In this document: one piece after another, positions 6,199 through 42,991 of the stretch
How positions within the stretch are numbered: the stretch's first letter is position 1
Layout of the letters: each line of letters opens with the position of its first letter
NCBI GenBank assembly: GCA_937925925.1
Contig: CALANA010000168.1
Coordinates: 1-48,552 of the forward strand
DNA: 48,552 nucleotides
DNA from: an uncultured Chloroflexales bacterium
GTDB taxonomy: Bacteria; Chloroflexota; Chloroflexia; Chloroflexales; Chloroflexaceae
Direction: 5' to 3'
Program-made: the position numbers and the translations under genes
Notes under the pieces: model-generated
Told to the model about the DNA's origin: nothing
What the model saw: the letters and a program-made list of their open reading frames with translations, nothing else
Database searches by the model: none

Positions 6199-6767
6199 AA
6201 CTTACACCTTACCCAATTCAAGGTTCAGCTTTCCTGACCGGCGATGTCTGGAAGTACCAACGTTCAAACGCGAACAGCGAACGGAAATTGCATCCTGTGC
6301 ATCCTGCATTATCAATCAACAGCAATAACTACAACTCCTCGTATCCTGAATTTTTGCAGAAATAACAAACGCTCACACAGGGCTCTCAAATCACTGAGTC
6401 CAGGCGAGCTTCGTTGGCGCATGATATTTTCAGAACTGTATGATAAAAAGAGATCCTCGTTGCGTCTTCGGAACGAGCATCTGGTGTACCAGCGAATTAT
6501 GGTGTTAGAAGATAGCCGTGTGGTTATCGACTTCCACTGGCACTGGCCTCACAGGGGCCGATAGACGGTACAATAATGATACTAGCGAACCAGAATGTGG
6601 GGATATACCATGGCCCGGCGATTCCCTCGCCTTGTTGAGGGTACTTCGGGCTTCGTTACACACTGACTGCGTAGCTAAAAAACTGTTAATTAAAGAAAAC
6701 TATACTATAATAGACTGCTTTTGTCAAATAGTTATTTGGATAGATCTTACAAATACAGGGCATATTT
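6199..6767. other. Gene-free divergent promoter region
   Basis: This 569-bp AT-richer stretch separates gltB (-) from the glycosyltransferase gene (+). The right end carries the predicted promoter at 6683-6711. An open frame at 6244-6564 has no ribosome site or recognisable protein character and I do not accept it. I see no convincing -35/-10 pair for gltB, although GATAAT on the minus strand (6308-6313) is a possible -10. Confidence 0.5.
6683..6711 (+). promoter_or_regulatory. Predicted sigma-70-type promoter for the GT4 gene
   Basis: A perfect TATAAT (6706-6711) sits in an AT-rich block. The hexamer 17 bases upstream is CTGTTA (6683-6688), a poor -35. Transcription would start near 6718, leaving a leader of about 50 bases before ATG 6768, which has AGGG seven bases upstream. 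Confidence 0.5.
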
Positions 6768-8241: not shown

Positions 8242-10653
8242 ATGAACATAGATCTGCAAACACTGTTAAAAGAAGAATATCCTGGTTTGCTGCGCTTTGC
8301 TGGTACACGTGGATTTGTGCTAGATGTGGAAACCAGTTTCTGGGCATTGTGGCAGGAGATCGAAGCTCTGGCCGGGCCGCAATTGACCAGTGTGCTGATG
8401 CACCGTGCTGGTACACAGGCTGGCATAGCTTTTGCCCATGCTTTTTTGAGCCAGATCCTTCCAGCGCAATCAACGATCCAGACTGATGCGGCGGATCGGA
8501 CGACAGATATAACCACTGTGCTGTCCGATCCGCCGGCCAGTAGGCATCAGATCCAGGAGTCGCTGTCCACGACATTACGTGCCTGTATTGCGGCGTATCA
8601 GGTGACTGGTGCCGGGCGGTTCGAGGTGGACAGCATCGACTGGGCGGCCCTTGATGATCGTCATCATGCGATTGCCAGCATCCGTATTCGAGCCTGGGAC
8701 ACGCTTGAAGTCTGGATGGTGCGTCAACACAGTCTGCCTGTAACCGGGCCGGTCTGTGTGTATACCAGTGGCGTTTTGTGTGGTCTCGTGACAACTATTA
8801 TTGGGCATCATGATCTCATCTGTGTGGAGCAGGCCTGTCAGTCGCAGGGGGCCGAGGCATGCCTGTTTGCAGTTATGCCAGTCGCGCAGGCTCGTGTTGC
8901 CGAGGGCGACCAGACGGGTGAGCCGGTGCCAGGCGCACCAGATGCGACCATGGTTGCATCTGAACAACATATCCTGGAAACACGTCTGAAGGAGCAGACA
9001 GCGGTTTTGCTCCGAGCCAACACCTTTTTGCAATCGCAGATCATTGAGCGGCGGCGTGTGGAAGAAGTCTTGCAAGAGACACAACGCATTCTCTCGACCT
9101 TGATGAGTAATCTACCCGGTATGGCCTATCGCTGCCACAACCAGGAAGATTGGATGATGGAGTTTGTCAGTGAGGGATGTCTGGATTTGACGGGGTATCA
9201 GCCCGCTGACCTGCTGTACAATAAGGTTGTGAGCTATGTGAGCCTGATCCATCCTGATGACCGTGCTAATGTCTTGAACAGCATTCGGGAGGCACTCGAT
9301 GCAGACCGTCCGTTCCGGTGTGTCTATCGGATTATCACCGCAACTGGCGTGGAGAAGTGGGTGTGGGAGCAAGGCCGTGGGGTGCTATCGCCCACGGGCA
9401 AGCGCATGATCGAAGGCTTTATTAGTGATAACACCGAACGCATGCAGGCCTATCATTTGCTCGAACAGCGTGTGACTGAACGGACACAGGAGCTGCGACG
9501 CCGACGTGAGGTGGCTGAAGGTCTGCGCGGTATTCTGACTGTTCTGAACTCGAATCGATCACTGGAAGAGATTCTGACCTATATCGTGGCGCAAGCCTGT
9601 CGATTGTTGGGCACCAACGCAGGGGCGATTTATCGGCTCGAACGTGATATGCTCACCATCCAGGCGTATCAGGGCTTGCCAGCGGCCTATGCTGAGGTCA
9701 AACTCCCCTTTGGTTGGGGGGCCACTGGTAAAGCCGTGGCGCAGCGTCAACCGGTAGCGATCTCCGACACGCAAATTTTTCTCACCACGCTGGATAATTC
9801 GGTGATCGTGCCCCATCATCGTCCGCTCATGGTGCAGGTGATGCAGCAGTTTCAGTCCCTCCTGGCAGTACCGCTGGTTATTAAGGAAGAAGTGTATGGC
9901 GGTATCACTATTTATCATACCGATAGGCATGAGTTTACGGCTGAGGAAATCGATCTGGCAGTCTCGTTCGCTGATCAAGCGGCCCTGGCGATCGAGAATG
10001 CGCGCTTGCGTGAGCAGACCGAGCGGGCCGCAGCCGCAGCGGAACGGAGCCGACTGGCACGCGATTTGCACGACGCCGTCACCCAGACACTCTTCTCGGC
10101 CAGCCTGATCGCCGAGGTCTTGCCCCGCCTGTGGGAGCGGAGTCCCGAAATGGGCCGCCAGCGGTTGGAGGAGTTGCGGCAGTTAACGCGCGGCGCACTG
10201 GCCGAGATGCGAACGCTGTTGCTGGAACTGCGGCCGGCGACATTGACGGAAGTAGGCTTGCCCGACTTGCTGCGGCAGTTGACCGAGGCCATTACTGGGC
10301 GAGCGCGGGTACCGGTGATACTATCCGTTGAGGGGCAGCGGTATCTACCACCCGATGTTCAGGTAGCCCTGTATCGTATTACGCAGGAAGCGTTGAACAA
10401 TGTTGCCAAACATGCCAGCGCCAGCCGGGCGGCTGTTATTCTGCGCTATCAACCGACAGGCGTCATGTTGCACATTAGCGATGATGGACGGGGATTTACC
10501 CTGGAACAGACCTTGCCGGACAGTCTCGGCCTGAGCATTATGCGTGAGCGGGCTGAGGCGATCGGGGCGCAATTGCGCATTGAGAGTGAACCGGCTGAAG
10601 GGACACAGGTGATGGTTGTCTGGACTGACCCGCATCAGGTGGAGGAGTTATGA
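8242..10653 (+). CDS. Sensor histidine kinase, V4R/XylR_N-like + PAS + GAF + NarL-type kinase
   Basis: 803 residues with no clear membrane segment, so probably cytosolic. In order: an N-terminal region (1-215) whose end VYTSGVLCGLVTTIIG and then QGAEACLFAV resembles the V4R/XylR_N small-ligand domain; a coiled linker; a PAS fold (about 281-400, GYQPADLLY and LIHPDDRANV); a GAF domain (about 430-590); a HisKA_3 dimerisation helix with the phospho-acceptor His610 in LARDLHDAVTQTLF; and an HATPase domain (about 690-800) with the N-box EALNNVAKHA and the G-box DDGRGF. This is the NarX/DegS/LiaS type. The stop overlaps the start of the response-regulator gene (ATGA), so the two form a pair. The ligand is unknown; V4R domains in other proteins bind small hydrophobic or tetrapyrrole-like molecules, so such a cue is possible but inferred. 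Confidence 0.92.
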   Translation: MNIDLQTLLKEEYPGLLRFAGTRGFVLDVETSFWALWQEIEALAGPQLTSVLMHRAGTQAGIAFAHAFLSQILPAQSTIQTDAADRTTDITTVLSDPPASRHQIQESLSTTLRACIAAYQVTGAGRFEVDSIDWAALDDRHHAIASIRIRAWDTLEVWMVRQHSLPVTGPVCVYTSGVLCGLVTTIIGHHDLICVEQACQSQGAEACLFAVMPVAQARVAEGDQTGEPVPGAPDATMVASEQHILETRLKEQTAVLLRANTFLQSQIIERRRVEEVLQETQRILSTLMSNLPGMAYRCHNQEDWMMEFVSEGCLDLTGYQPADLLYNKVVSYVSLIHPDDRANVLNSIREALDADRPFRCVYRIITATGVEKWVWEQGRGVLSPTGKRMIEGFISDNTERMQAYHLLEQRVTERTQELRRRREVAEGLRGILTVLNSNRSLEEILTYIVAQACRLLGTNAGAIYRLERDMLTIQAYQGLPAAYAEVKLPFGWGATGKAVAQRQPVAISDTQIFLTTLDNSVIVPHHRPLMVQVMQQFQSLLAVPLVIKEEVYGGITIYHTDRHEFTAEEIDLAVSFADQAALAIENARLREQTERAAAAAERSRLARDLHDAVTQTLFSASLIAEVLPRLWERSPEMGRQRLEELRQLTRGALAEMRTLLLELRPATLTEVGLPDLLRQLTEAITGRARVPVILSVEGQRYLPPDVQVALYRITQEALNNVAKHASASRAAVILRYQPTGVMLHISDDGRGFTLEQTLPDSLGLSIMRERAEAIGAQLRIESEPAEGTQVMVVWTDPHQVEEL

Positions 10654-11291
10654 CCAGAGCGACGCGAATTCGGGTAGCGATTGTTGATGATCATGCGGTG
10701 GTGCGCAGTGGCCTGGGTGCGTTTCTGCTGGCCTATGATGATCTGGAACTGGTGGGTGAGGCGGGCAATGGTATGGAAGCCGTGAGTCTGTGTGATCAGA
10801 TCCAACCCGATGTGTTGTTGATGGATCTGGTGATGCCTGAAATGGATGGCGCGACGGCTACGCAGATTATTCGGCAGCGCCATCCGCACATTCAGGTCAT
10901 TGCGCTGACCAGCTTCAAAGAAGAAACCCTGGTGCAACAGGCACTGGAAGCTGGGGCCATTAGCTATCTGCTCAAGAATGTTTCAGCCGATGAACTGGTT
11001 GAAGCTATACGCGCTGCACATGTCGGGCGGCCAACGCTGGCACCTGAAGCAACTCAGGCTTTGATCCATGCGGCAACGCATGCGCCTCTGCCGCACTATG
11101 ATTTGACGCCGCGTGAACTGGAGGTGCTGACCTTGATTGTCGAGGGGCTAAACAATACCGAAATTGCCAGACGCCTGGTCGTGAGTCGTTCCACGGTCAA
11201 ATTCCACGTGAGTAGCATTCTTTCCAAACTCGGTGTTGCCAGTCGCACCGAAGCAGTGGCATTGGCCGTGCAGCATCATCTGGTACCTTGA
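10650..11291 (+). CDS. Response regulator, NarL/FixJ (LuxR) family
   Basis: 213 residues. The receiver domain (1-120) has the acidic pocket in VAIVDDHAVVRSGL, the phospho-acceptor Asp59 in LLMDLVMPEMDG, the switch Thr/Ser in IALTSF and the Lys in SYLLKNVSADEL. The C-terminal LuxR-type helix-turn-helix (about 148-210) reads LTPRELEVLTLIVEGLNNTE, then RSTVKFHVSSILSKLGV. ATG 10650 overlaps the kinase stop by four bases (ATGA), so translation is coupled and the kinase at 8242-10653 is the cognate partner. Target genes are unknown; autoregulation or control of the adjacent surface-polysaccharide block is a possibility only. Confidence 0.96.
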   Translation: MTRATRIRVAIVDDHAVVRSGLGAFLLAYDDLELVGEAGNGMEAVSLCDQIQPDVLLMDLVMPEMDGATATQIIRQRHPHIQVIALTSFKEETLVQQALEAGAISYLLKNVSADELVEAIRAAHVGRPTLAPEATQALIHAATHAPLPHYDLTPRELEVLTLIVEGLNNTEIARRLVVSRSTVKFHVSSILSKLGVASRTEAVALAVQHHLVP

Positions 11292-11352
11292 TGAAGCGTT
11301 GAAGCGTTCAAGCGATCTGAGCGGTGCAACACTCGAACGGTTGAATGCTTGA
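11288..11352. repeat. GCGTTCAA-type octamer array (degenerate)
   Basis: Directly after the response-regulator stop the sequence cycles through GAAGCGTT, GAAGCGTTCAAGCG and diverged CGGTTGAATGC units. It is a short, decayed member of the 8-bp GCG-anchored repeat type described at 15352, 15520, 24219, 30161 and 42809. Confidence 0.5.
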
Positions 11353-11388
11353 CCGTGTTTCTGCTATAGCAGTTCTATTATACTTGTA

Positions 11389-11445
11389 AACCGGGAGTCC
11401 CGGCTTGAGCCGGGACGGAGCGCTAGCGTCAAGTCGGGACTCCAA
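11389..11445. repeat. Dispersed palindromic repeat (family G), copy 1; possible terminator
   Basis: The core is a perfect 9-bp stem GTCCCGGCT-tg-AGCCGGGAC (11397-11416). The block starting GTAAACCGGGAGTCCCGGCT matches, in inverted orientation, the block at 19947-20008. It lies between the convergent response-regulator and ABC-permease genes and could end transcription from either side, but its dispersal argues for a repeat element. Confidence 0.65.
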
Positions 11446-11474: not shown

Positions 11475-13370
11475 TCAAATCTCCTCACCAAACTGGCCGC
11501 TGTGGCGTTGGAAAAACCAGTAGCCTACGGCTAATACCAGCAGTGCTGTCACCAGCACGCGGGCGACGCTGTCCAGGGCGGGCAGGCCAGGCGTAGGAAT
11601 CTGCCCCACGCTCACCGGGTTGCCATACAAGATCTCGCGGTAGAACTCGATCAGCGAAGCCATGGGGTTAAGCCAGCGAATGAGGCGCACGACCGGCTCG
11701 CTGAGGTTGACAAAGTTCAGCGAATAGAAGACCGGTGTCAGAAAAAACCAGAACTGCATAAGAATGCCAATGAGATGCACCGTGTCACGGAAAAAAACGG
11801 CCACCGTACTCAGAAACAATGCCATCCCCGCCAGGAACAACGTTTGAATAAATAACAGCACCGGCAAATACGTCATTGTCCACGAGAAGTTGAGCCGCCC
11901 CTCCAGCGGCGCATACACCATCTGCACCACAACCATAACCAGGAGCATCATCGGCAGCGAGAGCAGGTAGTTAACCATGCTCGAAAAGACACACACCAGT
12001 GGCAAGACTTCACGCGGAAAGAACACCTTCTTGATCAGATTGGCATTGTCGATCACACTGCGCGTGCCGCCAGTCACCGCCTCAGAGCAGTAGTTCCAGG
12101 GCAATAAACCCACAATCAGAAACACCGCAAACATGGCAATCGACGATTGGAACAGGGTGCTAAAGACAAACCAGAACACCAGCATCAGCATCAGCGGTGC
12201 CAGTTGCGTCCACAGATAGCCGAGCGCACTGCCTTTGTAGCGCACACGTAAGTCGCGTAGCACCAGATTGCGGATTAACTCGCGGTAGGCCCACAGATCT
12301 TGCAGCTTGGGCATGACTCCGGCTGAGCGATCCACTGCTACACTGATGCCGCCAGCGGTTAAACCCGCCAGTGTTGCCAGCATGAGCGACAGGCCAATCT
12401 GCCGGGGCACTGGCTGCAACGGCAGTTCGGCGGTGATCCGTTGCACCGTGCCCGGTGCATCAGGGGTGAAGGTCATACCTTGCACCTGATGCATATAGCG
12501 TAACGCCTGGTCAATCGCCTGACGACGCGCAACCGCCTGATTTCGGAACGTCAATTCCTGCTGAATCAGATCATTCAGCGCCGCACAGTCGCGCAATGCC
12601 GCCTCACGCACGGCCGTCGCGGCGCTCGTGGCCGTGCCACACCAGGCATCGAGCGTTGCGTTGCGTGTATTAATCTCTACAGTCCACAGATCATAGCGTG
12701 ACTCAAGCGCTCGGGTCAGATCATTCTGTTCCTCTGCCGGTAAAAGCTCCACCTGAAACCGCTCAGAGACTGGCTGGAGGTCACGACTCAATGGGAAGGC
12801 ATGCTGCGCAATGATTGTGCGCAGATAGATTTGAAAGGGAGTGAGCGGGGCTTCGCCATCAAGCGCGGCCATGAGTTCCCAGCCAAGCAGGTTGCGCAAG
12901 ACCTCGCGCCCACCAGCAGCGCGAATCTGCCGGGTCAACTCTGCGGCACCGAGATTCGCCAGCAGTTGTGCTTCAGCCGCGGTTTGCGCCACACCGCGCA
13001 CCTGCACGATACCAGGTTCAGGCGAGACGTACTCGATGCGGAAGTCGGGTGACCCAAAGCGTAACTCCCGCTGCGCCAGGAAACGTTGCCGTAACGCCTC
13101 AGTCGCATCGCGGGCCGCAACGTCAAAGCCCGTTACCCCAGGAGCTACCTCGGCATAGATGCCACCATAGAGCGCAACATCAAAGCGCGTCTCAGCCAGG
13201 GTCTGATAGATAATCGGCTGTGACATGACCCGTGGTGCAGTTATCGCCAGCACGCCCAGAACGCACAGGACGATCCATAACCACTGATAGAGCCGTAGCC
13301 CGGCATGTTGCCGGCCGAGCGCTCCCATCCAGCGGTAGGCCTGATTTGAAAAGGTTAGACTACGGGCCAT
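11475..13370 (-). CDS. ABC-2 polysaccharide-export permease with N-terminal Wzz-like domain
   Basis: 631 residues. An N-terminal membrane segment (about 27-47, WLWIVLCVLGVLAI) is followed by a roughly 270-residue extracytoplasmic part with helical, Arg/Gln-rich heptads and a second membrane segment near 325. This layout is that of Wzz/KpsE chain-length (co-polymerase) domains. Residues about 360-625 are a classic ABC-2 permease of the KpsM/RfbD/TagG type: ELIRNLVLRDLRVRYKGSAL, then six membrane segments and the TPVFYSL-type loop. The role inferred is export of a capsule, O-antigen or similar glycan. The start lies inside the end of the upstream deacetylase gene (16-base overlap) with GAGG seven bases before ATG, so expression is coupled. 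No ATPase subunit (KpsT/RfbE-like) is adjacent in this window. I infer the Wzz likeness from topology, so that part is less certain. Confidence 0.85.
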   Translation of the reverse strand: MARSLTFSNQAYRWMGALGRQHAGLRLYQWLWIVLCVLGVLAITAPRVMSQPIIYQTLAETRFDVALYGGIYAEVAPGVTGFDVAARDATEALRQRFLAQRELRFGSPDFRIEYVSPEPGIVQVRGVAQTAAEAQLLANLGAAELTRQIRAAGGREVLRNLLGWELMAALDGEAPLTPFQIYLRTIIAQHAFPLSRDLQPVSERFQVELLPAEEQNDLTRALESRYDLWTVEINTRNATLDAWCGTATSAATAVREAALRDCAALNDLIQQELTFRNQAVARRQAIDQALRYMHQVQGMTFTPDAPGTVQRITAELPLQPVPRQIGLSLMLATLAGLTAGGISVAVDRSAGVMPKLQDLWAYRELIRNLVLRDLRVRYKGSALGYLWTQLAPLMLMLVFWFVFSTLFQSSIAMFAVFLIVGLLPWNYCSEAVTGGTRSVIDNANLIKKVFFPREVLPLVCVFSSMVNYLLSLPMMLLVMVVVQMVYAPLEGRLNFSWTMTYLPVLLFIQTLFLAGMALFLSTVAVFFRDTVHLIGILMQFWFFLTPVFYSLNFVNLSEPVVRLIRWLNPMASLIEFYREILYGNPVSVGQIPTPGLPALDSVARVLVTALLVLAVGYWFFQRHSGQFGEEI

Positions 13371-15211: not shown

Positions 15212-15351
15212 GCTGTTGTTACTCTCTCCTCCTCAAACACCAGGAGTATAGCACTGATCGCTGTGACCGGGCCAACCAGTGCTACCCTGCTCAACAGCAG
15301 GCCATTCTAGCACAAAAGGTGGTAGACACAAAATGCTGACCCGACGACGGC

Positions 15352-15463
15352 GCGAGGACGCGAGAACGCGAGGACGCGAGGACGCGAGGATGCGACGGCG
15401 CGAGGACGCGAGGAGGTGAGGATGCGACGATGCGACGATGCGACGACGCGAGGAGGCGACACG
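15352..15463. repeat. Octamer array, 14 units of GCGAGGAC type
   Basis: From 15352 the sequence falls into 14 consecutive 8-base units, nearly all beginning GCGA: GCGAGGAC, GCGAGAAC, GCGAGGAT, GCGACGGC, GCGAGGAG, GCGACGAT and so on. Only one unit departs at the second base (GTGAGGAT). The register is kept while the last five bases vary, so the GCG anchor seems to be what is conserved. It lies between the divergent-looking borders of the deacetylase and GT2 genes, both minus strand. Confidence 0.9.
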
Positions 15464-15580
15464 GCAGGTAGCGCGTCCCTCCGCGACGCGGGCTGCGGTC
15501 GGTTGGGATGTGGTAGAAAGCGGTCTGAGCGGTCTGAGCGGTTTGAACGCTTGAGCGCTTGAACGATTGAACGCTTCGCA
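15464..15580. repeat. Repeat family H copy and GCGGTCTGA/CGCTTGAA array
   Basis: Bases 15468-15512 (GGTAGCGCGTCCCTCCGCGA, then GCGGTCGGTTGGGATGTGG) are a diverged copy of the block seen twice at 30225-30270 and 30323-30367. They are followed at 15519-15579 by units of 8-9 bases (AGCGGTCTG twice, AGCGGTTTG, AACGCTTG, AGCGCTTG, AACGATTG, AACGCTTC). As at 30161, a GCG octamer array sits right beside the family H block. Confidence 0.75.
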
Positions 15581-20875: not shown

Positions 20876-23614
20876 ATGGATTTTACTCCGGCCCAGCATC
20901 AGGCTATTCATCTGGACGATAACTTGATTGTCACTGCTGGTGCGGGCAGTGGTAAGACACGGGTGCTGGTCGAGCGCTACCTGCGCTTGTTGACAACGGA
21001 TGCGCTGCAGGACGACGCGGCGGCTTTTGCGGCAGTGGCGTCAATCCTGGCGATCACCTTTACCGAAAAAGCGGCCCGCGAGATGCGCGAGCGCGTGCGG
21101 CAGGCGGTCGAGCAACGGGCACAGGAGGCACCTCGTGCCGAGCGCCCAACCTGGGAAGCCCGTCGTAGCGCCATCGAGGTGGCGCGGATTGGCACCATTC
21201 ACAGCTTCTGCGCCACACTATTGCGCAGCCATCCGGCAGAGACTGGCCTTGATCCCCACTTTCGCGTCCTTGATGAAGTCGAGGCGCTGTCGTTGCTGGC
21301 CGAGGGCGTTGATGCTGCCCTGATGGAGACCGTCTGCAGAGGCACCTCTTGTGGGTGCCCGCGTGGCCCTGATCCCGACATACCTGATCTGCCACTACTA
21401 TTGGCCGAGTTTGGGCGCGAAGAGTTGCGCACGATTCTGACCGATATGGTGCGCGGCGGGGCCGAGGTGCGGGCAGCGCTGACACATATGCCCGCCACAG
21501 TGGACGCATTGCAGGCACTGTGGCAGACCTGGTTGACCACGACACGTGCCAATGTGCTGGTGGCACTGATCGGTCACCTGCGCTCATGTGCCGCCCGTGT
21601 TGAACTGGATCGTCTGGCCGCAATCGCCAGTGATCAGGATGTGATTGGCAAGCAAGTGCGGGCGGTGCATGACTGGCTGGCGCACCTACCGGTCATAGAT
21701 GTGACCGTCGGTACGCCTGAACCGTTGACCAACATATCCATACCTGATTTTACACCAATCAGGACTATCAAACTCAATGGTGGCAGCAAGAAAAACTGGC
21801 CCACCGCTGAGGATCTGGTGGCAGCGAAGGCGGCGCTGGACATGGTGCGCGCGGCGTACAAAGACTACAAAGACAAAAACCTGCTAGAACTGACGCTTGA
21901 TGCCGAGCTAGAGCAGCGGGCGGCGCAGGTGACCCTGAGTCTGCGCACGCTCTATATGCAGACGGTGGCGTGTTATACCCAGCGCAAGGAGCAGATCGAC
22001 GCGCTGGACTATGATGACCTGGAGCAACGCGCCCGCGCATTGCTGGAGCAACATCCCCAGGTGTGCGCCCGCTGGCAGGCCGAGTTGCGGGCGGTGCTGG
22101 TGGATGAGTTTCAGGATACCAATGATGAGCAGCGGGCGATCATCTATGCGCTGACGGGCATGCACCACCCGTCACCCGCCGCCGACAACCCGTCCAGCGC
22201 GGCATGTGCGCCACCAACGCTGTTTGTGGTTGGTGATGGGAAGCAGTCGATCTATCGCTTTCGCGGCGCAGATGTGAGCGTCTTCCGCCGCGTTGCGTCT
22301 GACATTGTGGCCCGTGGTGGGCAAGCGGTTGCGCTAGATACTTCTTTTCGCAGCCATGCACTGCTGTTGACCTGGATCAATCGGGTGACAGCCCAGGTAT
22401 TTGCGCGCCCGCAGCCCCTGCGAGCCTATGAAATCCCGTTCGAGGCCTTACATGCCCACCGTCCCGCTCCGCCACACCCCTGCTGTGTGGAGCTGCATCT
22501 CGTCACCGACAGCGCGAGTGCCGAGGCGTCACGCGAGGCCGAGGCCCAGGCCCTGGCTGCACGTATCCGGGCGCTGGTGCAGGGGACTGAAGGGGCGCTG
22601 GTGTATGGGCCGCAGGGCTGGCGCATACCGGAGTATGGCGACTTTGCGCTGCTGTTTCAGGCTTCCACGGTGTTTGACCATTATGAACAGGCCCTCCGCG
22701 CAGCGGGTATTCCCTATCTCACCACCGCCGGGCGTGGCTATTATGGCCGCAAAGAGGTGCTGGATCTCATTCATTTGCTGCGTGTGCTGGACGATCCGAC
22801 CGATGAACTGGCACTGGTGGGCGTGTTGCGGTCGCCGCTGTTTGCGCTGGACGACGCTACCATCCTGCGCTTGCGCTTTGCCCATCCGCACAGCCTGTGG
22901 GCGGCGCTGATGCAGACCGCTGCCGAGACACCTGAGACCGCGTATGTACCGCTGGATTTTGCGCGTACGACCCTGCGTGACCTGCACGACCTGCGCGGAC
23001 GGGTCACGGTGGTTGAGTTGCTGCGTGCGGCGCTGGCGCAGACGGGCTATCTGGCAACGATCAGTGGGTTGCCGGATGGCGAGCGGCGGCGGGTCAATGT
23101 GGAGAAGTTGCTGGAGGCAGCGCGGCGGGTGGGCAGCGGCGGCCTGGGCGTTTTTCGGGTGTACCTGGATAGCCTGCTGCAAGCCGAGTCACGCGAAGGC
23201 GAAGCGCCGCTGGAGGCGACCGGCAGCGTGCAGTTGATGACGGTTCACCGCAGCAAAGGCCTGGAGTTCCCGATCGTCGTGCTGCCCGATCTGGGGCGCA
23301 AGCCACCACCGCAGAAGGCCCCCTGGCTGGCGCGGCGGCCGTATGGACTGGCGCTGCAACTGCGCGATACGACGGGCGAAAAGGTGCCCACCGTGGCCTA
23401 TCACCTGGCGCTAGCCGAGGAGCGGCGGATGGAGCAGGCCGAACGCGAGCGTCTGCTGTATGTGGCACTGACCCGTGCCCGTGACTATCTGCTCCTCAGC
23501 GGGCCGGCACCACAGCCGAGCGGCGAGGACTGGCTCAGTCGCCTGATGAGCGCAGCCGGAGAGTCGTGGGAAAGTGGCGGCTCAGCAGGGTGTGTGCGGG
23601 TGTTTTATGTTTGA
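20876..23614 (+). CDS. UvrD/RecB-type superfamily 1A helicase, AddA-like, lacking nuclease domain
   Basis: 912 residues from ATG 20876, two bases past the DA1-like stop, with AAAGG upstream. Motifs: Q-motif FTPAQHQAI, Walker A VTAGAGSGKTRVLVERYL (about 20-37), Ia AITFTEKAAREMRERV, the IGTIHSFCATLLR strand, motif II VLVDEFQDTNDEQ (near 408), motif III VGDGKQSIYRFRGADV, motif IV LDTSFRSH, motif V TVHRSKGLEFPIVVLPDL, and motif VI ERLLYVALTRARDYLLL (near 860). The order and insert sizes follow AddA/RecB rather than UvrD. Classical AddA is about 1200 residues with a C-terminal PD-(D/E)XK nuclease; here the protein ends about 50 residues after motif VI, so the nuclease part is absent, by truncation or natural design. 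It is a 3'-5' DNA helicase by homology, probably in recombination or repair. Confidence 0.92.
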   Translation: MDFTPAQHQAIHLDDNLIVTAGAGSGKTRVLVERYLRLLTTDALQDDAAAFAAVASILAITFTEKAAREMRERVRQAVEQRAQEAPRAERPTWEARRSAIEVARIGTIHSFCATLLRSHPAETGLDPHFRVLDEVEALSLLAEGVDAALMETVCRGTSCGCPRGPDPDIPDLPLLLAEFGREELRTILTDMVRGGAEVRAALTHMPATVDALQALWQTWLTTTRANVLVALIGHLRSCAARVELDRLAAIASDQDVIGKQVRAVHDWLAHLPVIDVTVGTPEPLTNISIPDFTPIRTIKLNGGSKKNWPTAEDLVAAKAALDMVRAAYKDYKDKNLLELTLDAELEQRAAQVTLSLRTLYMQTVACYTQRKEQIDALDYDDLEQRARALLEQHPQVCARWQAELRAVLVDEFQDTNDEQRAIIYALTGMHHPSPAADNPSSAACAPPTLFVVGDGKQSIYRFRGADVSVFRRVASDIVARGGQAVALDTSFRSHALLLTWINRVTAQVFARPQPLRAYEIPFEALHAHRPAPPHPCCVELHLVTDSASAEASREAEAQALAARIRALVQGTEGALVYGPQGWRIPEYGDFALLFQASTVFDHYEQALRAAGIPYLTTAGRGYYGRKEVLDLIHLLRVLDDPTDELALVGVLRSPLFALDDATILRLRFAHPHSLWAALMQTAAETPETAYVPLDFARTTLRDLHDLRGRVTVVELLRAALAQTGYLATISGLPDGERRRVNVEKLLEAARRVGSGGLGVFRVYLDSLLQAESREGEAPLEATGSVQLMTVHRSKGLEFPIVVLPDLGRKPPPQKAPWLARRPYGLALQLRDTTGEKVPTVAYHLALAEERRMEQAERERLLYVALTRARDYLLLSGPAPQPSGEDWLSRLMSAAGESWESGGSAGCVRVFYV

Positions 23615-23646: not shown

Positions 23647-24114
23647 ATGATCTGCATTGAACGTGCTACCCTGGCTGACGCCGCGGCTATTCTGGATCTA
23701 CAATATCGCGCCTATCAAGGCGAGGCCGAGCGTTACAACGATTGGCAGTTACCCCCTCTGACCCAGTCGTATGCTCAACTGCTGGTCGAGATCGAACAGC
23801 AGATCTGTCTGAAAGCCACATGGGGCACCCATCTGGCTGGCTCCGTGCGGGCATATCTGGCAGGGGATACCGGCTACATTGGCCGCCTGATGGTCGAGCC
23901 AGCGCAGCAACGACAGGGGATTGGCACGCGCCTGATGGAGACCATTGAACGGGCGCTCCCCGACGCAACGCGCTTTGAGCTATTCACCGGCAGCCGGAGC
24001 GAGCATAGTCTGGCGTTGTATCACAAGCTGGGCTATCGCATTGTGCGCTCGGCATATGTGCATCCCCACTTGACGCTGGTGTATCTGGAAAAAAAGCGGG
24101 TACGCCCGGCGTGA
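23647..24114 (+). CDS. GNAT-family N-acetyltransferase
   Basis: 155 residues from ATG 23647 (MICIERATLADAAAILDL). The GNAT fold is visible: beta-1 and helix N-terminal, the core strand GDTGYIGRLMVEPAQQRQGI with the acetyl-CoA loop Q-R-Q-G-I-G at about residues 90-96, and SLALYHKLGYR in motif B. An acetyl group from acetyl-CoA is transferred to an unknown amine. An upstream extension to 23566 would overlap the helicase gene and has no homology, so I reject it. The gene starts 32 bases after the helicase stop and runs in the same direction. Confidence 0.88.
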   Translation: MICIERATLADAAAILDLQYRAYQGEAERYNDWQLPPLTQSYAQLLVEIEQQICLKATWGTHLAGSVRAYLAGDTGYIGRLMVEPAQQRQGIGTRLMETIERALPDATRFELFTGSRSEHSLALYHKLGYRIVRSAYVHPHLTLVYLEKKRVRPA

Positions 24115-24143
24115 GCCATCGGTGGTCAATGAGGGTGGGCGCT

Positions 24144-24593
24144 ATGGACTGGATCACATGGGCCGAGGTGTTGAGTTATGTCGTGACGATCGTGGGCCTG
24201 CCATTCGCCATCATTCAAGCGGGCTGAGCATTCAAGCGTTCGAGCGGGCTGAGCGTTCAAGCGCTCCAACGCTTCAGCGCTCCAACGCTCCAACGCTCCA
24301 ACGCTTCAACGCTTCGTGGTGCGCCGCAGGAATTGACCGAGGAGCAGCAGGAGCGCCGCCTCGTTATTTTTGAGATGCTGATTGCGCTCTTTGAACGGGC
24401 CTATATTCTGGTCTATGAGGATCATATGTCAGCGCACACGCAACGTCTGTGGCGCACGTGGGACGATTATATGCGTTACTGGTGTCGCCGCCAGGATTTC
24501 CGCGCGGCCCTGCCGATGCTGATTGAAGGCGAGGATGCTGACTTTAGCCGCTATATCCTGGCGGTGCTGGCCAACGAGATGGCAAAGTCGTGA
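24144..24593 (+). pseudogene. Small membrane-anchored protein gene broken by an octamer repeat array
   Basis: ATG 24144 begins MDWITWAEVLSYVVTIVGLP and FAII, a short N-terminal membrane helix, then reads into the repeat array (24219-24318) and meets TGA at 24225-24227. After the array the same frame is open again: QELTEEQQERRLVIFEMLIA, LFERAYILVYEDHMS, LWRTWDDYMRYWCRRQDFRA, to the stop at 24591-24593. Both halves look like one family of about 150-residue membrane-anchored proteins of unknown function (N-terminal anchor, helical cytoplasmic domain). About 35-45 residues that should join them have been replaced by repeat. Only the single TGA prevents read-through. Re-initiation at ATG 24375 or a non-ATG codon near 24333 could make the C-terminal part. 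The stop overlaps the next gene's GTG. Confidence 0.7.
24219..24318. repeat. GCG-anchored octamer array inside a gene
   Basis: Units of 8-9 bases run in register: GCGGGCTGA, GCATTCAA, GCGTTCGA, GCGGGCTGA, GCGTTCAA, GCGCTCCA, ACGCTTCA, GCGCTCCA, ACGCTCCA (twice or more), ACGCTTCA, ACGCTTCG. This is the same unit type as at 42809-42915 and 15519-15579. It lies in the reading frame of the gene at 24144-24593. Confidence 0.85.
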
Positions 24594-25696
24594 ACATCCT
24601 GTTCCTCAACCCCTACCACGGCGGCTCGCATGCGGCGGTGGCCGAGGGCTATGCTGCCCATAGCCAGCACGAGGTCACGCTGTTGACGTTGTCCAGCGCT
24701 GGCGGCTGGCGCTGGCGGATGCGCGGCGGCGCAGTGACGCTGGCGCGGCTGGCGCGTGCCCAGTCCAGCCCGCCCGATCTGATCCTGACCACGTCAATGC
24801 TTGATCTGGCAACCTTTCGTGCGCTCACCCGCGATTACTATCCACCTCACATTCCGGTCGTCGTCTATTTCCACGAGAATCAGTTGACCTACCCGCTGCC
24901 GCCGGGCCGTACCCGCGATCTGAGCTATGCCTGGATCAACTATACCAGTGCGCTCACCGCTGACGCGATCTGCTTTAATTCAGAGTTTCATCGCCGCGAG
25001 TTCCTGGCGGCGCTGCCCACGCTGTTGCGGCGCTATCATGACTACCACGAACTGGCGACGATCGACGCTATAGCTACAAAATCGCAGGTACTGGCACCGG
25101 GGATTGACCTCCGGCGTCACGACCAGGTGGCCGCTCCAGCACTGCCCGCCAGTGCTGGCCCGCCGATCATTCTGTGGAACAGCCGTTGGGACTACGACAA
25201 GCAGCCGCAGGCCTTCTTCGCGGCGCTGGAGGCACTGGCGGCGCGAGGCCTGGATTTCCGGTTGATTATCGCCGGCGAACATGTTGATCCGAACGCACCG
25301 GAGTTTGTGGCCGCCCGCCAGCGCTGGGCGGCGCATATTGTTCACTGGGGCTACGCCGCCGATCCGTCGCACTACAGTCGCCTGCTGCACCAGGCCGACA
25401 TCGTGGTCAGCACAGCCATCCAGGAGTTTTTCGGCATCGGCGTGATCGAGGCGCTCTACTGCGGTTGTATGCCCATCCTGCCGTGCCGTCTGACCTATCC
25501 CGACCTGCTGCCCCCGGCCTATCACGCCGACTGCCTGTATGACTCGTCGCAAGCGCTGGTGGAGCGGCTGCAGGCCGCTTTGCAGCACAGCCACCTCCGC
25601 CGTCAAGACTGGCGCACCATCGCCGCGCCCTACGACTGGTCGCGGCTGGCCCCGCGCTACGACGCGCTGCTGGCGGAGGTACGGTCGGTGGGGTAG
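24590..25696 (+). CDS. tRNA-queuosine mannosyltransferase-like glycosyltransferase (DUF3524/QTMAN family)
   Basis: 368 residues, GTG start at 24590 overlapping the previous stop (GTGA), which indicates coupled translation. The N-terminus MNILFLNPYHGGSHAAVAEG with LLTLSSAGGWRWRMRGGAV, VVYFHENQLTYPLPPG and SYAWINYTSALTADAICFNS is the DUF3524 domain that defines the GTDC1/QTMAN group. The C-terminal GT-B domain has PIILWNSRWDYDKQPQAFF, VHWGYAADPSHYSRLLHQAD, VVSTAIQEFFGIGVIEAL and YCGCMPILP, the GT4 donor-binding region. The vertebrate enzyme adds mannose to queuosine in tRNA-Asp; bacterial homologues are less studied, so the tRNA role here is inferred from family only. No queuosine biosynthesis gene is in the window. 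Confidence 0.88.
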   Translation: MNILFLNPYHGGSHAAVAEGYAAHSQHEVTLLTLSSAGGWRWRMRGGAVTLARLARAQSSPPDLILTTSMLDLATFRALTRDYYPPHIPVVVYFHENQLTYPLPPGRTRDLSYAWINYTSALTADAICFNSEFHRREFLAALPTLLRRYHDYHELATIDAIATKSQVLAPGIDLRRHDQVAAPALPASAGPPIILWNSRWDYDKQPQAFFAALEALAARGLDFRLIIAGEHVDPNAPEFVAARQRWAAHIVHWGYAADPSHYSRLLHQADIVVSTAIQEFFGIGVIEALYCGCMPILPCRLTYPDLLPPAYHADCLYDSSQALVERLQAALQHSHLRRQDWRTIAAPYDWSRLAPRYDALLAEVRSVG

Positions 25697-30149: not shown

Positions 30150-30160
30150 TGTCCGACGAG

Positions 30161-30224
30161 GCGCGGATGCGAAGATGCGCGGATGCGAAGATGCGCGGAT
30201 GCGAAGATGCGCGGATGCGAAGCG
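30161..30224. repeat. Octamer array, alternating GCGCGGAT / GCGAAGAT
   Basis: Eight units alternate in a strict 16-base super-repeat (GCGCGGAT then GCGAAGAT), 11 bases after the Nudix stop. A shorter version with GAGGCGAA units lies at 30296-30322. Confidence 0.9.
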
Positions 30225-42604: not shown

Positions 42605-42991
42605 ATGGCCGATGAGCCGCAAAAACAGCCTGATGAAACCGGCGCGATGGCCGGGATGAGCGCTGGTACCGTTACGGGTGCCAGCATTGGGACAGTGTTG
42701 ATACCCGTGCCTTTCGTTGGCACCTTTGCGGGTGCGCTGGTGGGGGGGATGCTCGGCAGCAAGATGGGCCGGGCGATTGGTAATGCGGTGCAGAAAAAGA
42801 AGCGGGAGAGCGTTCAAGCGTTCAAGCGTTCAAGCGTTCAAGCGGGGGAGCGGAAGAGCGGGGGAACATTCAAGCGTTCAAGCGTTCAAGCGTTCAAGCG
42901 CTCGAACGCTCAGGCGCTCAGAAGGCAAGATTGCTTCAGGATTGACGAGGGGGGAAAAGACAATGTTTGTCCAATTTCATCATCGCGCTGA
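42605..42991 (+). CDS. Glycine-zipper protein with repeat-derived C-terminal tail
   Basis: 128 codons. Residues 1-65 are a coherent small protein: a charged start (MADEPQKQPDETGAM), then AGMSAGTVTGASIGTVLIPV and VGTFAGALVGGMLGSKMGRA, a glycine-zipper membrane-active helix pair, and a basic end (NAVQKKKRES). From residue 66 on the frame is translated GCGTTCAA array (SVQAFKRS repeated), because three 8-base units make eight codons. The original stop has probably been displaced. The C-terminus overlaps the start of the phosphoribosyltransferase gene by 29 bases. Glycine-zipper proteins often sit in membranes; function unknown. It has an excellent promoter and Shine-Dalgarno. Confidence 0.75.
   Translation: MADEPQKQPDETGAMAGMSAGTVTGASIGTVLIPVPFVGTFAGALVGGMLGSKMGRAIGNAVQKKKRESVQAFKRSSVQAGERKSGGTFKRSSVQAFKRSNAQALRRQDCFRIDEGGKDNVCPISSSR
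42809..42916. repeat. GCGTTCAA octamer array inside the 3' end of a gene
   Basis: GCGTTCAA is repeated four times without change (42813-42844), followed by diverged units with GCGGGGGA/GCGGAAGA, then four more GCGTTCAA-like units and GCGCTCGAACGCTCAGGCGCTCAG. It is the least decayed GCGTTCAA array in the window. Confidence 0.9.

Follow-up and report, generated by a model that had tools for sequence, protein, structure and literature searches.

Rickettsia palindromic elements are mobile repeats, palindromes of about 100–150 bases, that land in genes and are translated; they insert into the host gene and do not replace it. In the phase-variation loci of Haemophilus influenzae, the repeat lies within an otherwise whole gene. 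The locus described here is a small gene at 24144–24593 of a 48,552-nucleotide stretch of DNA from an uncultured Chloroflexales bacterium (the window; the assembly it comes from is the window genome). It resembles the Rickettsia elements in that a repeat has landed inside a gene, and differs from them in that the repeat is an octamer array and takes the place of host sequence. With the tetranucleotide phase-variation loci of H. influenzae it shares an in-frame tandem repeat whose unit is not divisible by three (PMC2651432). Here, on the other hand, translation meets a stop ahead of the tract, and the gene has lost a segment.

Among dispersed repeats, the closest described systems have units of seven bases. 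Chloroflexus aurantiacus carries dispersed heptamer satellites, (GATAGRA)n (PMC6749651). The likeness lies in a single short-unit tandem family, scattered through the genome of a related phototroph and specific to the species; the difference is a unit of 7 bases and another sequence. Arrays of the heptamer GGGNATC occur in Xanthomonas and Nostoc and overlap genes in 7–11% of cases in Xanthomonas, which is close to the share in the window genome (PMC4692102). There, as here, short-unit arrays are many, mainly intergenic and often near stop codons, but those heptamers form G-quadruplexes and prefer four units, whereas the arrays of the window genome are GCG-centred octamers with several related units. 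Small variable segments, abundant in membrane-protein genes, have been ascribed to illegitimate recombination in other bacteria (PMC2884548).

The window case fits these known kinds, dispersed satellites and small variable segments. It is less common for arrays to replace gene segments repeatedly within one genome, and a search of the literature for octamer arrays of this group gave little. Taken alone, the finding would amount to one dead gene. Together with the other cases presented below, it shows that a short-unit satellite can spread into bacterial coding sequence and replace gene segments, beyond its intergenic sites, and that the arrays sometimes stay open inside working-looking proteins. 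The array-carrying genes are clear sites at which to study array movement.

An interrupted gene and its intact homologues

The window gene follows a single frame (frame 0) on the forward strand from ATG 24144 to the TGA ending at 24593, and its sole internal stop is TGA 24225–24227, in agreement with the one stop codon reported by the initial annotation. The N-terminal remnant (24144–24214) spans about 24 codons, with the start codon and a membrane helix; its sequence, MDWITWAEVLSYVVTIVGLPFAII, aligns with residues 1–24 of intact homologues. The C-terminal remnant (24314–24593), which begins with GAPQELTEEQQERR and runs to the stop, shares its frame with the N part and gives a profile match of E=2.6e-40. 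Between the two, Tandem Repeats Finder placed a composite array (24214–24313). Its first part (24214–24263) is a 25-base unit present twice (period 25, 92%) and contains the only in-frame stop. Its second part (24262–24313), the only clean octamer tract, is made of 6.5 octamers of the CGCTCCAA/CGCTTCAA type (period 8, 88%) and belongs to the same repeat family genome-wide. The stop thus sits in the irregular part, upstream of the octamer tract, whereas the regular part is stop-free in frames 0 and 2. The 8-base period previously assigned to the whole array holds for the second part, and in the first part it gives way to a 25-base duplication.

With the C part as query, two genomes of the same family gave intact relatives, which a wider search assigned to Candidatus Chloroploca asiatica, mongolica and strain Khr17; the wider search added a verrucomicrobial MAG, Didemnitutus, and a partial homologue on a Verrucomicrobiales contig. 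Every whole homologue is one continuous protein of 161 residues. Identity to two intact homologues is 12/24 and 14/24 over the N part, and 47/78 and 54/78 over the C part. Both flanks match one protein, and two genes of no common family, the outcome named in advance as speaking against a single interrupted gene, were not seen. Alignment with intact homologues, the check proposed in the initial annotation, bears out its central claim that N- and C-terminal pieces of one protein flank a middle replaced by the array: about 44–46 residues of the homologues are absent, and about 33 array codons stand in for them.

The lost segment includes the conserved positions Y42, L45, Y49, F52, L55, L57, H59 and L62 (Chloroploca numbering), which are retained even by a homologue of 30% identity in a different chloroflexotal family. 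The structure predicted for the intact protein is all helices, with modest confidence (mean pLDDT 67). On this model, the array would take out the end of the first (membrane) helix and all of helix 38–57. Intact homologues elsewhere, a disrupting stop and the loss of conserved residues are, together, the marks of a pseudogene.

Searches of Pfam, PHROGs and NCBIfam gave the small protein no family name, with weak, chance-like matches only. Its distribution is patchy, and relatives occur on plasmids of Sinorhizobium, Deinococcus and Paracoccus. The search of the window genome yielded no second copy. In the same-genus genome G001 (85% complete) we found neither the small gene nor the full-length downstream gene QTMAN, so this genome cannot serve as an empty-site control.

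Octamer arrays across the genome and inside other genes

To define the repeat family we used four consecutive CGYTYNAR units as a pattern, counting overlapping matches, with the reversed pattern as control. The window genome (G000) has 720 matches, genome G016 has 49 and the other family members have 0–6, while the reversed-pattern control gave 0; the array at 24214–24313 is not a chance sequence. Other CG-centred octamer arrays are also abundant in G013, G024 and G012; the arrays listed there have different units, such as CGAGGAGG and CGTGTCCC in G012. The generic CG-every-8 pattern is a less clean test of family, as GCG arrays are picked up by its reversed control too. From these comparisons, this bacterial family seems to have undergone repeated amplification of octamer arrays.

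In a sample of 80 further stretches of the window's assembly (1.08 Mb), we counted 60 period-8 arrays, 6.5 kb in all. Only 6 of the 60 have coding sequence of one strand on both sides, compared with 1436 of 3000 random places (48%); scoring required about 200 bases between an array and the end of its stretch. The median distance from an array is 20 bases to gene 3' ends and 124 to 5' ends. With many unrelated sites, mostly outside genes, and a lineage-specific amplification, the family behaves as a dispersed short-unit satellite. The window itself has further intergenic octamer arrays at 15345–15576, 30154–30222 and 42803–42920. Their units differ yet are related, and the last array comes immediately after the end of a reading frame. 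Octamer arrays lie at or near an end of contigs C14, C18, C46, C53 and C54 of the window genome, so these repeats fragment its assembly.

Other genes also carry arrays. An ABC permease (stretch L098 of contig C24, 7153–8046) reads as an N part ending in WQRL, an array with one stop, and a C part resuming at FAFIFGAYEAPELLG in the same frame; judged against seven homologues, 19 residues (RYVTLPLVLPGLAAGAALV in the closest one) are replaced by 68 codons. On the minus strand of the same stretch, a metallophosphatase (12221–13035) is also split by an array, its C part resuming in another frame. Over 114 bases, the metallophosphatase array is identical, in inverted orientation, to the permease array 5 kb away, which suggests copying of array sequence between sites. 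In a putatively DUF2298-like membrane protein, an open, in-frame array lengthens a loop of about 17 residues to about 50. Predicted genes overlap with further arrays of the sample, and several of these arrays keep an open frame within multi-helix membrane proteins; for one, on contig C222, the coordinates of homologues suggest that about 10 residues were replaced by about 42. Large membrane proteins with in-frame open arrays, located in loops or near the N-terminus, are encoded at 6503–8770 of L094, at 8880–11429 and 11879–14284 of L129, and at 1–1656 and 1999–5457 of L139.

A test of whether the openness of the arrays points to selection for translation came out negative: on average 3.48 of the 6 frames are open per array, against 3.22 when the eight unit positions are permuted, and 32 of 200 permutations reached as high a value. 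The openness is what composition predicts, and a single stop in the window array is unremarkable. Frame-keeping was likewise set aside as functional evidence. The halves share a frame in both the small gene and the permease, which has a chance of one in three in each case, and open cases are easier to spot.

Explanations for the interruption

Probably, the window gene encoded a small helical protein with a membrane anchor and was inactivated recently, one of its segments having been replaced by a spreading satellite-like repeat. With 44–46 codons lost and about 33 codons of composite octamer array in their place, the array stop would follow soon after the N-terminal helix, so that only a short peptide of 27 residues is expected and presumably no functional product is left. 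Mechanistically, the gene would have suffered a break with loss of host bases, and the gap would have been filled during repair by copying from an array elsewhere. Direct support extends to the replacement, the repeat family, the stop and the lost motif, as well as to the host sequence missing in two genes with clear homologues, and to the array sequence that different sites have in common. The age of the break is judged from the C part, which is not accelerated: it has 11 lineage-unique residues, the same number as Chloroploca, and its differences fall as 22/9/44 over the three codon positions. The break is therefore probably recent, and too little time would have passed for the C part to erode.

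Alternatively, selection could still act on some product, which would likewise explain why the C part has not accelerated. This bears on a split but working gene, in which read-through or re-initiation would yield the C-terminal domain, alone or joined to the N part. The C part is open over 86 codons, with no erosion of codon bias or amino acids, and bacterial in-frame stops under purifying selection have been reported (PMC7918605). We nevertheless regard such a gene as unlikely. The only starts ahead of the C-terminal domain are TTG 24333, which has no clear ribosome-binding site, AGGA lying directly against the TTG, and later internal ATGs; a read-through product would in turn carry about 33 array codons where the conserved helix belongs. 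The initial annotation had suggested a different possibility, a phase-variable gene in which gain or loss of octamers shifts the frame and turns the protein on or off. A unit of 8 is indeed not divisible by 3, and the two stop-free frames of the regular part would suit such a switch, but the stop at 24225 lies upstream of the tract (24262–24313). Slippage in the tract could neither remove this stop nor rejoin the halves, because translation has already ended there. Moreover, about 44 residues with the conserved motif are absent whatever the unit number, which leaves no otherwise intact frame for that number to switch, the tract is short and 88% regular, and arrays of this class are mainly intergenic. 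With the stop ahead of the regular tract and conserved residues lost in every state, a switch by octamer number is not supported, and we consider it very improbable.

An error of assembly, in which a short-read assembler made a false join at the repeat or dropped part of the sequence there, has a slim chance of accounting for the structure. Array tracts stand at several contig ends and are hence troublesome to assembly, but most of these contig-ending tracts measure 179–510 bases, whereas an array of about 100 bases can be spanned by ordinary short reads. In addition, both flanks come from the same gene in the correct order, strand and frame, and the ABC permease has the same build. The occurrence of in-frame arrays in several genes might also suggest a removable insert, intron-like or bypassed by the ribosome, to which we give almost no credence: conserved host residues are missing in both the small gene and the permease, and removal would not restore the protein.

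Replacement of a segment in a now inactive gene is, accordingly, the reading we retain for the window. A broader proposal, which we put forward tentatively and hold to be rather doubtful, is that octamer arrays act as copy-and-paste patches at broken DNA: after a loss of host bases, sequence copied from another array would close the gap, open patches being kept as new protein segments such as the loops of membrane proteins. If this were true, patching would have failed in the small gene and in the ABC permease.

The neighbouring genes and QTMAN

Downstream of the small gene, on the same strand, lies an intact gene for a tRNA-queuosine alpha-mannosyltransferase-like protein (QTMAN, 24590–25696; Pfam PF12038, E=2.3e-59), which is found full length at 60–70% identity in relatives; a homologue at 60% identity or more is kept in most genomes of the family. 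Directly upstream of the small gene is a GNAT acetyltransferase gene (23647–24114, forward strand; Pfam PF00583, E=5.6e-14), and ahead of it a UvrD-like helicase gene (20876–23614, forward strand), which adjoins QTMAN in two relatives. In these two genomes (G002 and G018), QTMAN stands directly behind the helicase, and both the acetyltransferase and the small gene are missing from that interval. From this comparison, the acetyltransferase and the small gene (23647–24593) appear to be later arrivals, a two-gene insertion between UvrD and QTMAN.

It had been proposed that QTMAN is translationally coupled to the interrupted frame. As geometry, this stands: the GTG start of QTMAN (24590) and the stop of the remnant (TGA 24591–24593) form a 4-base overlap, and coupling to the remnant is possible in the window genome. 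A general dependence does not follow, since the position of QTMAN right after UvrD in the two relatives indicates that its expression is generally independent of the small gene. In several other genomes, pieces of UvrD lie upstream of QTMAN at a distance.
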